This document shows positions 1,293 to 31,811 of a stretch of DNA of 64,000 nucleotides, in pieces. The translations under genes and the position numbers were made by a program. Under the pieces are notes generated by a model. The model did no database searches. It was not told where the DNA came from and was given only the letters and a program-made list of their open reading frames with translations. Numbering within the stretch: the first letter of the stretch is position 1; the number at the start of each line of letters is the position of its first letter. Source of the DNA: Cellulophaga sp. RHA19 (GTDB lineage Bacteria; Bacteroidota; Bacteroidia; Flavobacteriales; Flavobacteriaceae); the NCBI RefSeq assembly GCF_002813425.1, contig NZ_PHUL01000001.1, positions 2,425,001 to 2,489,000 of the forward strand, given 5' to 3'.

Positions 1293-2009
1293 TTAGTAGT
1301 TTCTTTTATCAACCTTATAATTTATGTATTTGTGTTTCATCCATAAATAGGCAAAACAATCTGCTAAGGGGCCTAAAGATCTGTTCCAAAAGCCAAATTT
1401 AGTTTTGCCTGCAATTCTAGGAAAGTGTTGTACAGGAACTTGTTTAATTTTTCCGTTTTGTAACAATATCATTGCGGGTAAAAACCTATGTAAACCTTTA
1501 AAAATAGGTATTTGCTTTGCGTAATTTGTTTTAATCACTTTTAAAGGGCAACCAGTATCTTCTACACCATCATTGGTAAAAGAGCGTCTTATTTTATTTG
1601 CTAGGGTAGAGGATAGTTTTTTTAAACCGGAATCTTTCCTGTTTATTCTAATACCAGTAACTAAGTCGTACTTTGGTGTGTATTCTAATAGTAAATTAAA
1701 ATCTAAGGGGCTTGTTTGTAAATCGGCATCAATGTAACCAACTAGTTCTGTTGTGGCTTCATCAAAACCAGCTTTTATAGCAGCTGTTAATCCGTAATTT
1801 TTATCAAAAAGTAAATAAGAAAAATTAGAGTTGTTTGCACAAATTTGCTCTAATAGTATTTGACTATCGTCTTTTGAGCCATCGTTAATAAATAGAACAC
1901 AAGTTTTTTTTGTAGCAATTTTAAGGTACTCAGTTAGCTCTTTATCTAATCTGTTAATGTTATCTTCTTCATTGTAAATAGGTACAATTATAGTAAACTC
2001 ATACTTCAT
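1293..2009 (-). CDS. Family 2 glycosyltransferase (polyprenyl-phosphate sugar transferase type)
   Basis: A GT-A fold glycosyltransferase of 239 residues. The nucleotide-sugar binding start TIIVPIYNEEDNI is at the N terminus, FINDGSKDDS follows, and the metal-binding motif DADLQTSP is near residue 97. The arrangement resembles dolichol- or undecaprenyl-phosphate mannosyl/glucosyl transferases (DPM1/GtrB), but the long C-terminal membrane segments of GtrB are absent, so it is a soluble or peripheral enzyme. The frame opens three codons earlier at a TTG; the ATG at 2009 (MKYEFTIIVP) fits the family better. It lies 23 bp after meaB on the same strand. Acceptor and sugar are unknown. Confidence 0.85.
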   Translation of the reverse strand: MKYEFTIIVPIYNEEDNINRLDKELTEYLKIATKKTCVLFINDGSKDDSQILLEQICANNSNFSYLLFDKNYGLTAAIKAGFDEATTELVGYIDADLQTSPLDFNLLLEYTPKYDLVTGIRINRKDSGLKKLSSTLANKIRRSFTNDGVEDTGCPLKVIKTNYAKQIPIFKGLHRFLPAMILLQNGKIKQVPVQHFPRIAGKTKFGFWNRSLGPLADCFAYLWMKHKYINYKVDKRNY

Positions 2010-2032
2010 AATATACAAACTAATTGTTGGTC

Positions 2033-3070
2033 TTATTTACTATGTAACTTTAATAATTTGTCTGCAGCAGAAAAAGGAGATGTTTTATTGTTTATAACGG
2101 CATTTATAGCGCCTTTTAATTCTGCCTTTACATTTTTATCATCATAAAACTGTTGCTTTAGCTGGTCTTCTATAGTTTGCAATAACCAATATTTGTTTTG
2201 CTGTTGTCTTTTTGTATCAAAAAAGCTATTTTTAGTATTGGTGTCTACGTAGTCTTTAATAGTTTCCCAGACCTCTGTAATACCTATATCTTCTAAGGCA
2301 GAACAGGCAAGTACTTTTGGTACCCAACCATTATCTTGTGTTTTTAATAAATGTAATGCTCGTGCAAATTCTACTCGCGCTTTTTTGGCACGTTGTACAT
2401 TATCACCATCAGACTTATTAATTACAATAGCATCTGCCATTTCCATAATACCACGCTTAATGCCTTGCAGCTCGTCACCAGCACCAGCTAATTTTAACAA
2501 AAGAAAAAAGTCTACCATACTATGTACGGCAGTTTCACTTTGGCCAACACCAACAGTTTCAATTAAAATAACATTATAGCCAGCAGCTTCACAAAGTACA
2601 ATGGTTTCTCTGGTTTTACGGGCAACACCACCTAAAGAGCTACCAGATGGCGATGGTCTAATAAAAGCATTTTCGTCTTTTACCAGCTCTTCCATACGTG
2701 TTTTATCACCTAAAATACTACCTCTAGTAACAGTGCTTGTAGGATCTACAGCTAACACAGCTACTTTGTTTCCTTGGGCGGTAAGTCGTTTTCCAAAACG
2801 TTCTATAAATGTACTTTTACCAACACCAGGAACTCCTGTAATACCAATTCTAACACTTTTTGTTTTGTGAGTTAAACAGCGCTCAATAATTTCATTAGCC
2901 TGTTTGGTATGCTCACTATTGGTACTTTCTATAAGTGTTATAGCTCTGCTTAAAGCGGTTTTGTCACCTTTTAAAATACCATTGGTTAAACTATTTGTAG
3001 ACGGTAACTCTCTTCTAAATTTTTTAATTTTAGAAGCACTCTTGGAACTTATATTTTTATGTGTGCTCAA
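2033..3070 (-). CDS. meaB: Methylmalonyl-CoA mutase-associated GTPase MeaB
   Basis: A G3E-family GTPase (also called ArgK) that protects and reactivates adenosylcobalamin-dependent methylmalonyl-CoA mutase in the cytoplasm. The 345 residues match the usual family length. Visible motifs are the P-loop GVPGVGKS (about residues 79-86), the AVDPTS region, the switch-like ETVGVGQSE, and NKSDGDN for guanine recognition. It starts 2 bp after the DUF2911 gene stops, so the two are co-transcribed. The mutase subunits are not in this window, but a cobalamin adenosyltransferase that would make the cofactor is encoded at 13743-14318. Confidence 0.93.
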   Translation of the reverse strand: MSTHKNISSKSASKIKKFRRELPSTNSLTNGILKGDKTALSRAITLIESTNSEHTKQANEIIERCLTHKTKSVRIGITGVPGVGKSTFIERFGKRLTAQGNKVAVLAVDPTSTVTRGSILGDKTRMEELVKDENAFIRPSPSGSSLGGVARKTRETIVLCEAAGYNVILIETVGVGQSETAVHSMVDFFLLLKLAGAGDELQGIKRGIMEMADAIVINKSDGDNVQRAKKARVEFARALHLLKTQDNGWVPKVLACSALEDIGITEVWETIKDYVDTNTKNSFFDTKRQQQNKYWLLQTIEDQLKQQFYDDKNVKAELKGAINAVINNKTSPFSAADKLLKLHSK

Positions 3071-3072
3071 TA

Positions 3073-3633
3073 TTATTTGCTAATAGGTACGTTAACTTTG
3101 GTTTTATCCCAAGCTAAAGTTAAGTATGGTTGTTCTTTGTCTTCAAAGTTAATAGTAAATCTTTCTTTAACCGAATCTAATTTTGTTACAGGTACAGAAA
3201 CAGTCACAAGATCTTCTGAAGCATTTCTGGTAGTTTCTGCACCACCACTTAAAATAGTAACTCCCCAATCTGGAACCTCTTTATTAAAAATAATATCCCA
3301 ACTATCTTTATTGGGTCTAGACCATATAGAGTAAGTACCTGCGGGTAGTTGTTTGCCACCTACTTTAATTGCAGAAGAAGTTTTAAATATAGTAGGTTCA
3401 TTAGCGCCAGTTCTCCAAACTTTATTATAGGGAACAAGAGAACCAAAAATTTGGCGGTCTTTTTTAGACGGACTACAATAAACTACATTTAAATTATAAC
3501 CGTTTTTAGTATAGGTGGCAGTCTCCTCTGGACTAAACTTTTTTGTTTGCTCTTTCATCATAGGCATACCAACAAATACAGTAAGTAAACCAAGTACAGT
3601 TACTGTAATTATCATCCATTTTATAACTTTCAT
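3073..3633 (-). CDS. DUF2911 family protein, membrane-anchored or secreted
   Basis: A 186-residue protein with an N-terminal hydrophobic segment (about residues 6-24) that should anchor it in, or export it across, the inner membrane. The rest matches the DUF2911 pattern: YCSPSKKDRQIFGSLVPY, KVWRTGANEPT, and LPAGTYSIWSRP followed by WDIIFNKE. The biochemical role of this family is unknown; members are common in Bacteroidetes. The gene is first in an apparent two-gene unit with meaB (2 bp spacing), though I know of no functional link. The stretch before it is a divergent promoter region shared with the sigma factor gene. Confidence 0.85.
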   Translation of the reverse strand: MKVIKWMIITVTVLGLLTVFVGMPMMKEQTKKFSPEETATYTKNGYNLNVVYCSPSKKDRQIFGSLVPYNKVWRTGANEPTIFKTSSAIKVGGKQLPAGTYSIWSRPNKDSWDIIFNKEVPDWGVTILSGGAETTRNASEDLVTVSVPVTKLDSVKERFTINFEDKEQPYLTLAWDKTKVNVPISK

Positions 3634-3852
3634 ATTGTGGTTATTTTTTTAGATTTTTTCTAAGTTACTAAATCTTGCTTAATTAAGAATCCCCAAAATT
3701 GTACTTTAACTTGCGTTTTATATAAAGTGTAAAATTGCTATAAATTTATAGTGATAACTATAAAAATCTAAAAATAATTTATGTTTTTGCAACATCTGTT
3801 ATTTTATGTCGTCCTTTAAGCAACAAACAAAACCAAACCCAATAAATAATTA

Positions 3853-7748: not shown

Positions 7749-7779
7749 CTTCTTTTTTAAGATAAAATGCACCTTAGAT

Positions 7780-7884
7780 CGATTAGCAGTTTTTTGCTTT
7801 TTTACAGTTATCGATGTTATTTTACCGTTTATCATAAATTTTGTCAGACACCGAAAAATAAGTCGGTTTAAGCGATTTAGATTT
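7780..7884 (+). repeat. Upstream block, copy 1
   Basis: A 105-nt block that aligns without gaps to 8758-8862. Counting by hand gives 86 identical positions of 105. Its last 20 nt (GGTTTAAGCGATTTAGATTT) are identical in both copies. It ends about 50 nt before the start codon of the first small secreted protein gene. The block could hold a regulatory site or simply mark a recent segmental duplication. Confidence 0.75.
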
Positions 7885-7933
7885 AGTAACCCTAAGCTTG
7901 ATAGTAATTTTACAGTATCAAAACTAAGTTACT

Positions 7934-8170
7934 ATGAAAGCTATTATCGCTTTATTATTTGTTCTTACAGTAAGCGTTGCAGCACAAGCACAAGAAGCTA
8001 ATGTTTCTACTGTATTAAAATCAGATACTAAAGAGGTTAAAGCAACTGTAGTAAAGGAAGCGGTATTACAGCAAGAAGCTAAAGTTGCTCGTTTGTACAA
8101 GTTTAAAAATTCTAAAATTAAAAAAGCTTTAGCTTTTACTACAAAAAAAGCTGCATCTAAAATAGCTTAA
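7934..8170 (+). CDS. Small secreted basic protein, paralog 1 of 4
   Basis: A 78-residue protein with a clear Sec signal peptide (MKAIIALLFVLTVSVAAQAQ, cleavage after AQA). The mature part is about 58 residues: a variable, Glu/Lys/Val-rich linker, then the tail VARLYKFKNSKIKKALAF, then TTKKAASKIA, with many Lys and almost no acidic residues. The same tail occurs in the next three genes. I recognise no described family and assign no function; the tail could form a cationic amphipathic helix (inference). It is closest to paralog 3, with which it also shares upstream DNA. Confidence 0.75.
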   Translation: MKAIIALLFVLTVSVAAQAQEANVSTVLKSDTKEVKATVVKEAVLQQEAKVARLYKFKNSKIKKALAFTTKKAASKIA

Positions 8171-8404
8171 TAAATTTCTTACTCCTTATAATTCTCTTTG
8201 TTTTTAAGATGATAGATATTTCGTTTATCTAAAAAAACCTCCACAATACTACTAACAGGTTTTACTTTGTATTTGTAAAATTTAAGATGAATGTTAACAA
8301 CATTTATTTTATTACAATTCATCTATAGTTAAGTGTTACTCATCCACAATCATCAATTTAAGTTGTTTTTGGTTGGTAGCTTTGTAAAACAAAACAAAAG
8401 TATT

Positions 8405-8656
8405 ATGAAAACTGTTATCACTTTATTATTCGTTATTGTATTAGGATTAACTGCACAAGCAAAGGAAACTAAAACTACACCTGTTTTAAATGTAGAAAAC
8501 ACGGAAGTAAAAACAGGAGAAGTAAAAAAAGAGGTAATTAAAAAAGAGGTAGTTAAGAAAAAAGTTGAGGTAGTACGTTTGTATATGTTTAAAAATGCAA
8601 AAATTAAAAGAGCTTTAGCATTTACAATTAAAGATGTGGTAACTAAAACAGCTTAA
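8405..8656 (+). CDS. Small secreted basic protein, paralog 2 of 4
   Basis: An 83-residue protein starting at the ATG at 8405; the frame is open further upstream to 8333, but only this start gives a proper signal peptide (MKTVITLLFVIVLGLTAQA) aligned with the paralogs. The mature part has a KKEVIKKEVVKKKVE repeat-like linker and the family tail VVRLYMFKNAKIKRALAF. A possible -7 element TAGCTTTG lies at 8377-8384. Function unknown. Confidence 0.72.
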   Translation: MKTVITLLFVIVLGLTAQAKETKTTPVLNVENTEVKTGEVKKEVIKKEVVKKKVEVVRLYMFKNAKIKRALAFTIKDVVTKTA

Positions 8657-8757
8657 TTAAATATACTATAACTTTTGTTTTACATAAATATGTCTTACCC
8701 TAAACTGCATATTTATTTTCTTTGTTGCACAATATCTGTTGTAATGCACATAATTTT

Positions 8758-8862
8758 CGATTAGCAGATTTTACCCAATTTACAGTCATCGACGATTTTT
8801 TACACTTTATCATAATTTTTGTTAAACAGCGAAAAATATGGGGGTTTAAGCGATTTAGATTT
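8758..8862 (+). repeat. Upstream block, copy 2
   Basis: Second copy of the 105-nt block described at 7780-7884, again about 50 nt before a start codon (8911). A further short match follows outside the ungapped part: both copies have AGTAATTTTACA shortly before the gene, and the last 14 nt into the coding sequence (GTTACTATGAAAGC) are the same. Confidence 0.75.
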
Positions 8863-8910
8863 CTATAGCTTTATGTTGGTAGTAATTTTACATCAACAAA
8901 CAAAGTTACT

Positions 8911-9147
8911 ATGAAAGCTATTATCACTTTATTATTCGTTATTACAGTAAGCATTACAGCACAAGCACAAGATGCTAATGTTGCTCCTGTATTAAAAATG
9001 GATAGTAAAGAAGTAAAAGCTGCTGAAGTTAAAAAGGAAACTTTAAAAGAAGAAAATCAAGTAGCACGTTTGTATAAGTTTAAAAACTCTAAAATTAAAA
9101 AAGCATTAGCTTTTACAACTAAGAAAGCAAAAAGTAAAATAGCTTAA
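8911..9147 (+). CDS. Small secreted basic protein, paralog 3 of 4
   Basis: A 78-residue protein, the closest relative of paralog 1: signal peptide MKAIITLLFVITVSITAQAQ, then a linker and the tail VARLYKFKNSKIKKALAF followed by TTKKAKSKIA. The near-identical ends and the shared upstream block show a tandem duplication of gene plus control region. The linker has diverged while signal and tail are held, which suggests both are under selection. Confidence 0.75.
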   Translation: MKAIITLLFVITVSITAQAQDANVAPVLKMDSKEVKAAEVKKETLKEENQVARLYKFKNSKIKKALAFTTKKAKSKIA

Positions 9148-9372
9148 TATCAGTTAGATAGTTGTTTTTTAGTGAATTTATGATTACTTTTTAGTTAACA
9201 GTTGTAATGTTTGTTTTTTTGGATAAAGTGTTAGTTAACATAAATACTACTATTTTTTAATAGGTAGTTCATCTAAGTTATTGCAGATCAACGATAAAAA
9301 AGTGTTTTTAAACGAGTTTGAAAATAGATGAGTGAGCTTGGGTTGTAATTTTATAGTAAATAAAACCTATTT

Positions 9373-9615
9373 ATGAAAACTCTAGTAACCTTATCTTTTA
9401 TACTCTGTGTTGGTTTTTCTTTACAAGCACAAAAAGCTAAAAAGTCACCTCTTAATAAAGTTGAAATAGTAAAGGTAGCTTCAATAGTAAAAGAGACTAC
9501 AGTTAATAAGAATATTAAAAAGAATAGCGTAGCACGTTTGTATATTATAAAAAATGCAAAAATTATAAAAGCGTTATCTTTTGAAACAAAAGCAAATAAA
9601 GCAAAATTAGTTTAA
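9373..9615 (+). CDS. Small secreted basic protein, paralog 4 of 4
   Basis: An 80-residue, most divergent member: signal peptide MKTLVTLSFILCVGFSLQAQ, linker rich in Lys and Val, and tail VARLYIIKNAKIIKALSF ending in ETKANKAKLV. It lacks the 105-nt upstream block. A 38-residue ORF starts 2 nt after its stop codon, so the two are probably translated from one message that ends at the terminator at 9771-9802. Confidence 0.7.
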   Translation: MKTLVTLSFILCVGFSLQAQKAKKSPLNKVEIVKVASIVKETTVNKNIKKNSVARLYIIKNAKIIKALSFETKANKAKLV

Positions 9616-9617
9616 TT

Positions 9618-9734
9618 ATGATATATATAACTTTAATTACCGTAGCAGCTATAACAATTGGCTTATTATCTAAAAATAAACCAGCTATGCGTGCTATTAA
9701 AGTTCCTGTTCGTAATAAACATATTAAAAAGTAA
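9618..9734 (+). CDS. 38-residue hydrophobic/basic small protein
   Basis: A short ORF beginning 2 nt after paralog 4. The N-terminal part (MIYITLITVAAITIGLLS) is hydrophobic enough for one membrane segment and the rest is basic (KNKPAMRAIKVPVRNKHIKK). It lacks the RLYxxKN tail of its neighbours. Tight coupling, a proper ATG and the terminator right after it support it as real, but there is no homology I can cite. Confidence 0.5.
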   Translation: MIYITLITVAAITIGLLSKNKPAMRAIKVPVRNKHIKK

Positions 9735-31645: not shown

Positions 31646-31811
31646 TGCCCACATTGGTATTTTTTTGACAAACTCAACATTAATTTGTTTTTAAAGGGTG
31701 AGTTTAGTTTGTAAAAGCAAGCCTTACTAGTATAAGGATCCTTGATCATGCTGTTAGCCCTAATCCTGTTTTATAGGAGTTTGTACAAAACACCCCCAAT
31801 GTGGGTTTTTT
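31646..31811 (+). ncRNA. ssrS: 6S RNA (6S-Flavo type candidate)
   Basis: A structured non-coding interval of about 165 nt between zapA and rny. The closing helix is a perfect 10-bp pairing of CCCACATTGG (31648-31657) with CCAATGTGGG (31796-31805), followed by a T-run. A second perfect 8-bp helix is nested inside (ACAAACTC 31668-31675 with GAGTTTGT 31777-31784), and a hairpin CCTTA/TAAGG lies at 31722-31737 near the far end. The rod with an internal open region, the length and the place beside zapA fit 6S RNA, which binds the housekeeping RNA polymerase. The assignment is from structure and context, not from a covariance model. Confidence 0.75.

Follow-up and report, generated by a model that had tools for sequence, protein, structure and literature searches.

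Sequence comparisons establish that four tandem genes of Cellulophaga sp. RHA19 belong to an undescribed protein family, of which they form the secreted branch and which is defined by a 28-residue module at the C-terminus. The same comparisons recover a strong selective constraint on this module, an upstream operator whose high-scoring occurrences are linked exclusively to the family, and a further branch that lacks the signal peptide. It is the constraint from which any function of the tail has to be deduced, and we tentatively suggest that the tail serves as a short module for docking, of which much would be exported under a LytTR-type control of its own. The genes lie in the window, the 64,000-nucleotide stretch of DNA that was analysed (C1:2425001-2489000), which is part of a one-contig genome of 3.93 Mb.

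All four genes are intact and on the forward strand: gene 1 (7934..8170) and gene 3 (8911..9147) each code for a 78-residue protein of subtype A, gene 2 (8405..8656) for an 83-residue protein of subtype B and gene 4 (9373..9615) for an 80-residue protein of subtype C. Gene 2 is nested in a longer GTG-started ORF (8333), and the ATG at 8405 is its preferred start. Relative to the product of gene 1, the proteins encoded by genes 2, 3 and 4 are 49%, 76% and 43% identical, and 22 of the 83 columns in the four-protein alignment are invariant, chiefly in the signal and the tail. The ORFs and the alignment confirm the initial annotation, which had described four consecutive genes for proteins of 78-83 residues that have a Sec-type signal, a linker of variable sequence and a basic tail that is conserved. 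Called by eye and from hydropathy, the signal peptides of all four proteins comprise an M-K start, a hydrophobic core and an (A/L)-Q-A cleavage motif; the hydrophobic N-terminal segment and small-x-small motif typical of Sec and signal peptidase I substrates are thus recognisable by eye in every one of them. The +1 residue after the motif is Gln in genes 1, 3 and 4 and Lys in gene 2. The mature parts are cationic as had been claimed, with net charges of +9, +9, +9 and +13 for genes 1 to 4, and the last 28 residues carry +9, +6, +10 and +6, respectively. The linkers of genes 2 and 4 are not acidic, unlike the usual acidic linker in 222 relatives.

Lipoproteins were set aside for the missing lipobox Cys in the four proteins, and a defence system for the lack of a PADLOC match for the three of them that were scanned. 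Known C-terminal sorting domains of the type IX secretion system are longer than a mature part of about 60 residues; cargo of that system was set aside on account of this short length, and there was no Pfam match. A few bases past the stop codon of gene 4 there is a 38-residue ORF (9618-9734, forward strand) with a hydrophobic N-terminal half and a basic C-terminal half. This ORF is kept in sister genomes, being complete in locus L049 and cut in L011, and may be co-transcribed with gene 4. Elsewhere in the window, a 6S-Flavo RNA (Rfam RF01685, 105.1 bits) occupies positions 31672-31782 of the forward strand.

A profile built on the four window proteins matches 896 database proteins at E<=0.01; hence, the resemblance among the four genes is not due to chance. 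The best 120 of these 896 relatives are 72-111 residues long and every one has the tail. Wherever one of these 120 is named by its source, it is as a hypothetical or uncharacterised protein from Cellulophaga, Maribacter, Arenibacter, Spongiimicrobium and Flavobacteriaceae, with the single exception of a short-contig record labelled transporter, and the best-named relatives of the four proteins are from Cellulophaga. In a set of 60 genomes, the family is found at E<=1e-10 in 21, counting RHA19 itself; in 8 further genomes the matches are no better than E 8e-5 to 7e-3, fall in frames of 154-715 residues and are probably due to chance. At E<=1e-6 it is present in 45 of 249 sampled Flavobacteriaceae genomes and 42 of 235 genera, and the named loci include Maribacter, Ulvibacterium, Eudoraea, Muriicola, Kriegella, Saonia, Euzebyella and Flagellimonas, among others. 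For the locus set, 76 loci were kept and 166 of 242 stretches encode a relative; for the member set, 242 hits in 108 partly overlapping loci were reduced to 228 without identical upstream regions and then to 222 with a defined start.

Searches of Pfam (35 members), NCBIfam, PHROGs and PADLOC (three of the four proteins) returned no match over the cut-off or at a significant E-value, the best sub-threshold matches being weak ones in Pfam (E 0.0026) and PHROGs (E 0.0035). A profile of 35 sequences likewise matched no solved structure in the PDB (best E 0.042, ribosomal protein L24). The tail was not found inside larger proteins: frames at E<=1e-6 in the 249 genomes are 59-171 residues long, two of them with an internal stop. 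Nor was the family found described in a full-text literature search, outside which most subscription journals lie. The claim that these proteins belong to no described family therefore stands across Pfam, NCBIfam, PHROGs, PADLOC and the PDB. Since profile searches also recover relatives well beyond this strain that keep both signal and tail, the initial annotation survives the sequence-based findings that could have overturned it.

The tail module comprises the last 28 residues, approximately VARLYKFKNS(K/R)(I/V)KKALSFTTKxNKxK(L/M)A, at the very C-terminus. In the 222 members the mature part has a median length of 59 residues and a median net charge of +6, made up of a linker of 0-49 residues (median charge -3) and a tail whose last 29 residues have a median charge of +8. 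The AxA-Q motif with Gln at +1 is seen in 165 of the 222. A study of Bacteroidota signal peptidase I substrates under the so-called Q-rule gives an average of 71% for Gln at +1 across species (PMC5837995), and as this residue is generic in the phylum, it shows only that the family resembles ordinary Sec substrates. Across 41 between-locus nearest pairs, dN/dS is 0.06 for the tail, 0.15 for the signal and 0.30 for the linker, in agreement with the proposal that the signal and tail are more constrained than the linker. For the window genes against one sister genome the values are 0.50 for the signal, 0.44 for the linker and 0.21 for the last 28 residues; in this comparison one sister gene was the partner of both gene 1 and gene 3. 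AlphaFold2 models reached a mean pLDDT of 64 with 35 sequences and 73 with 81 sequences, with a pTM of 0.25 in both cases; in the latter, residues 51-70 reach a pLDDT of 84-85 and contain one short helix (60-66). The modelled tail is a motif and not a fold.

Although the net positive charge expected of an amphipathic antimicrobial peptide is present, an amphipathic helix or strand is not: moments at 100 and 170 degrees do not exceed those of shuffles at the 5% level. Over the first 18 tail residues the helical moment is 0.39 against 0.29 in shuffled sequences, with 23% of shuffles as high, and the share of shuffles as high falls below 5% in only 12% of 226 tails. The family shares with precursors of the defensin or cathelicidin layout the signal, the often acidic linker and the cationic C-terminal part, and is distinguished from them by the lack of a Cys pattern (any Cys in the mature part of 7 of 222 members), low amphipathicity, a near-invariant tail and the existence of a signal-less branch.

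This branch is represented in RHA19 by a fifth copy of the family at C1:472459 (L038 7454-7624), a 56-residue ORF without a signal peptide. We read 17 such loci, of which one (L320) proved to be a secreted member situated elsewhere and 16 are signal-less (L038, L050, L305 and L307-L319). In 14 of the 16 the gene lies directly between the methionyl-tRNA synthetase gene, metG, and a DUF1800-DUF1501 pair; in L305 a single additional gene separates it from metG, and in L311 metG is present with a different gene on the other side. These neighbours were confirmed by domain searches on L307 and assigned by ORF resemblance in the remaining loci. A 14-sequence profile of the branch matches 391 proteins at E<=0.01, and among 120 of these, a hydropathy window detects a hydrophobic N-terminus in just one (P0158). 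The median of this window is -0.19 in 120 signal-less relatives as against 3.01 in 120 secreted ones, and we infer that the signal-less members are cytosolic. In seven pairs, which share sequences, the tail again has a dN/dS of 0.06, with 0.22 for the head. The signal-less tails retain the Y, N, KK, L, F and T positions and the KL-(A/T) end, and have frequent Asp, some of it at basic or aromatic positions: at -22 (98 of 120), -8 (44 of 120) and -6 (65 of 120). That the tail core is retained while several positions carry Asp suggests that a specific partner is recognised and that bulk charge is not what counts.

The two branches bear directly on the proposal that the secreted tails are generic polycations, whose charge would bind them to lipopolysaccharide, acidic polysaccharide or DNA outside the cell, to the benefit of envelope or biofilm stability. 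The charge of the mature part and tail and the conservation of the signal peptides agree with it. However, the residue-level constraint on the tail exceeds what charge needs, and the signal-less branch keeps the tail core with Asp at several of its positions; we consider this explanation rather unlikely. Similarly, the existence of a signal-less branch with the same tail, together with the weak amphipathicity, argues against a simple membrane-active cationic peptide. Of the envelope-active cationic peptide put forward in the initial annotation, the cationic character itself holds, whereas the envelope activity is weakened by a signal-less branch under the same tail constraint (0.06) and by amphipathicity not above that of shuffles.

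Upstream of the secreted genes we identified an operator of about 125 bp, which in aligned upstream regions consists of six CGA-type half-sites arranged as three pairs in alternating orientation, with each pair about 21 bp apart. It was scored with a sequence-only profile, R1, derived from 46 upstream regions that include the operators of genes 1 and 3 and not that of gene 4. The gene 1 operator (7758..7882, forward strand; R1 82.2 bits, E 9e-25) has the three half-site pairs and ends 51 bp before the ATG, and that of gene 3 (8736..8861, forward strand; 78.1 bits, E 1.7e-23) ends 49 bp before it and is overlapped by a partial minus-strand R1 match. Gene 4 is preceded by a partial, decayed version (9215..9321, forward strand; 25.6 bits, E 4.2e-7), and gene 2 has no match with R1. 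The first gene has a box of the form TAnnTTTR at -29 (TAATTTTA, 7905..7912), and corresponding boxes precede gene 2 (TAGCTTTG, 8377..8384), gene 3 (TAATTTTA, 8883..8890) and gene 4 (TAATTTTA, 9346..9353), all on the forward strand, matched by consensus only and situated 27-29 bp before the ATG. We take these to be -7 boxes of the Bacteroidota type. The Bacteroides promoter element is given as TATCTTTG in one paper (PMC6193735).

Across 138 non-redundant upstream regions we counted 161 CGR/YCG pairs at a spacing of 20 bp and again 161 at 21 bp, where dinucleotide shuffles give 27.2 and 25.8; the regions being homologous, these statistics overstate independence. Other enriched spacings are 33 and 40 bp (strongly) and 7, 18, 22 and 32 bp (moderately). 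According to a paper on LytTR regulators, their sites are direct or inverse repeats of 9-11 nt with 11-13 nt between them and no common consensus (PMC4847170), and a Treponema LytTR system is cited elsewhere with the site ACCACTTAT-11 bp-GCCACTTAT (PMC6193735). The first of these half-sites, ACCACTTAT, is present in operators of secreted family genes. Both the enrichment and the 46-region alignment display the period of about 20-24 bp of LytTR promoters, a correspondence of geometry only, and the predicted operator geometry is that of LytTR regulators.

In the entire RHA19 genome the best R1 match away from the array has an E-value of only 0.0087. In 18 other genomes, all 48 matches at E<=1.2e-8 lie directly upstream of a family gene, as paired by hand, and the next best has E 1.4e-4; R1 was trained on such regions, some of them from these 18 genomes, and as 150 of the roughly 1400-3850 first-look candidates were scored per scan, weaker sites elsewhere may be missed. 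Of the 18 genomes, 12 bear the family and have 54 secreted copies between them, 48 of which are served by these operators; the 6 array-less ones have no R1 match better than E 1.4e-4. At such strength the operator hence marks the family alone, and together with the family genes it looks like a private regulon; the initial annotation had mentioned neither an operator nor a regulon nor a regulator. No operator was found upstream of the 15 signal-less loci searched, nor of L305.

Streptococcal bacteriocin peptides carry a double-glycine leader, in contrast to the Sec signal peptide of the present family, which belongs to a Gram-negative phylum. As in the streptococcal HdrR/BrsR regulons (PMC6193735), paired repeats with LytTR spacing stand just upstream of the promoters of several genes for small exported peptides; the operator here differs in having three pairs in alternating orientation, and the candidate regulator is a receiver-LytTR protein rather than an LRS regulator with a membrane inhibitor. 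Control of streptococcal bacteriocins by LytTR systems, reported in two papers (PMC6193735, PMC8545106), lends some appeal to the idea that the family proteins are antimicrobial precursors, whose acidic linker is a pro-region and whose protease-released tail kills competitors. The LytTR-type operator and the median charges of linker and tail would fit such precursors. However, the helical moment of the tail is not above that of shuffles, near-identical tails recur across genera, unlike fast-changing bacteriocins, and the same tail occurs in the signal-less branch. As no immunity, export or processing gene was recognised as a constant neighbour of the array in the 108 loci either, we judge an antimicrobial role improbable.

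As to the regulator, RHA19 has 16 LytTR proteins, and the best candidate, by our reading of their distribution and the most likely one, is the orphan protein designated L068 (G000:C1:3193676-3194404, where G000 is the RHA19 genome). Its LytTR domain (PF04397) is detected with E 1.2e-17 and 64.3 bits, against a cut-off of 22.6, and no Response_reg match is found at E<=0.001. In seven aligned orthologs the acidic pair of the receiver is never intact, the Lys is absent from all seven, and the phospho-acceptor position holds D in three, N in two, H in one and F in one; two LytTR regulators of the ordinary kind in the same genome retain the acidic pair, Asp and Lys. The receiver of L068 is hence predicted to be degenerate and incapable of the usual phosphorylation. 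Like regulators of the BtsR/YpdB type it has a LytTR domain, and BtsR is its best NCBIfam model (E 8.5e-19, 67.8 bits). It is distinguished from BtsR by a score far below the 246-bit cut-off and the loss of the receiver residues, and it has no LytS-type kinase pair directly beside it. Most of 11 loci (L284-L294) preserve the surroundings of L068 as a block: a gene for a glutamine cyclotransferase (Glu_cyclase_2, E 5e-86) one to three genes upstream, and downstream of L068 the genes for a TPR-HisKA_3 kinase and a response regulator. Dedicated pyroglutamate capping via the Glu_cyclase_2 gene was considered and dropped, as Gln at +1 is common throughout the phylum, and autoregulation was rejected since the best operator match in these 11 loci (E 7.9e-4) is not at the L068 gene.

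Though the L068 gene is not near the array, its phyletic pattern follows that of the family. Comparison of LytTR sets (15 of 19 loci in G028, 15 of 37 in G035, 7 of 9 usable in G023 and 9 of 10 in G031) singled out L068 as the one protein with a reciprocal best hit in both family-bearing genomes, G028 and G035, and in neither of the array-less ones, G023 and G031; given that the G035 set is incomplete, L066, L067 and L069 also remain candidates. Close L068 orthologs (E<1e-80) occur in all 21 family-bearing genomes and in none of the 39 others in the set of 60, which has distant homologs in G029 (E 7e-61) and G048 (E 1e-24). In the set of 249, they occur in 42 genomes, all of which have the family, and a distant homolog is held by 29 array-less genomes; as these co-occurrence counts ignore shared ancestry, the family and L068 may both simply be markers of one clade. 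Family-bearing genomes G097 and G190 have distant L068 orthologs (E 4e-64 and 6e-66), and in G097, where the ortholog is 45% identical, the operators are weak (19-34 bits). The main fact against L068 is the family-bearing genome G175, where three family genes have good operators (53-65 bits) and no L068 match was found at E<=1e-30 among the roughly 11 candidates scored per genome, which may be a miss.

Beside the array, the most frequent neighbours in the 108 partly overlapping loci are genes for msrA (46), an M23 peptidase (42), an FtsX-type permease (39), a GDSL lipase (35) and secA (25), with domains verified on examples. We found no sign of a functional tie to any of them and read them as markers of the ancestral array site. 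A further neighbour, a HisKA_2 sensor kinase, has 40 copies in 29 of the 108 loci (for example L046 10810-12015, and L052 10362-11585 and 13396-14625), and is duplicated in some genomes and lost in the clade of RHA19. This kinase may feed the control system of the family, for which it is not required. It is full length in 14 of 60 genomes, each of them family-bearing, and adjoins the array in 13, lying about 6 kb off in G035; this pattern could suggest that the exported proteins are peptide signals sensed by the kinase in a quorum-type loop. Nevertheless, 7 of the 21 family-bearing genomes, RHA19 included, lack the kinase, the L068 receiver could not be phosphorylated in the usual way, and the tails are nearly invariant, whereas signals usually diverge together with their receptors. 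All this makes a signalling role distinctly improbable.

Tandem amplification, which the initial annotation had noted, is supported, and a sister genome (G002) carries the array too. The common subtype order A-B-A-C indicates that the array is not a recent burst in RHA19. Several relatives hold nearly identical array copies. One copy in G014 (L051 6470-6706), with intact near-identical copies beside it, has an altered C-terminus ending in KKPCLFTQKQTKLN and is apparently a decaying member. Genome G097, a divergent one, has a family gene immediately after a sigma-factor-like gene and a short gene downstream of that, as named by eye (L297 4124-5494). G004, G011 and G017 have three almost identical copies lying singly between unrelated genes, the upstream block present at each of them, and no transposase or mobile-element end was recognised by eye in the gene lists around them. 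That the block is a duplication or dispersal unit travelling with the gene, and the LytTR link a coincidence of clade, would account for these single copies and for a family and L068 that could both be clade markers, but we give it very little credence, since the half-site spacing is kept while the bases between diverge and the end of the block, some 50 bp short of the ATG, closely precedes the -7-like box.

Returning to the docking module, we favour it, tentatively, because the tail has a dN/dS of 0.06 in both branches. In the mechanism we envisage, a LytTR-type activator, most likely L068, would bind the paired half-sites and turn on most copies together. The proteins would exit by Sec with cleavage at AQA|Q, and the N-terminal Gln would probably be cyclised, as in most Sec substrates of the phylum. 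This would yield a mature protein of about 60 residues in which a flexible, usually acidic linker carries the short tail. The tail would dock on a specific conserved partner, be it a protein, a nucleic acid or an anionic polymer, the array would multiply the dose of exported tail, and the metG-linked paralog would carry the same module inside the cell. A bolder version, possible if doubtful, holds that a LytTR protein whose gene is unlinked and whose receiver is dead acts, via the three-pair phased operator, on nothing but a set of tandem and scattered genes that export the docking module, and that the metG paralog presents the module intracellularly, with the same or competing partners across the inner membrane. 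A full-text literature search, with subscription journals mostly outside its reach, found no precedent for such a private LytTR system.

If the LytTR link is true, this would be a Bacteroidota LytTR regulon small enough to be solved fully, with one regulator, one operator type and one target family, and the signal-less paralog makes the partner of the tail approachable from the cytosol. The family is common in marine Flavobacteriaceae, none of the domain libraries searched contains it, and the constraint on its tail is strong; solving it would give a function to several hundred clusters that are now hypothetical.
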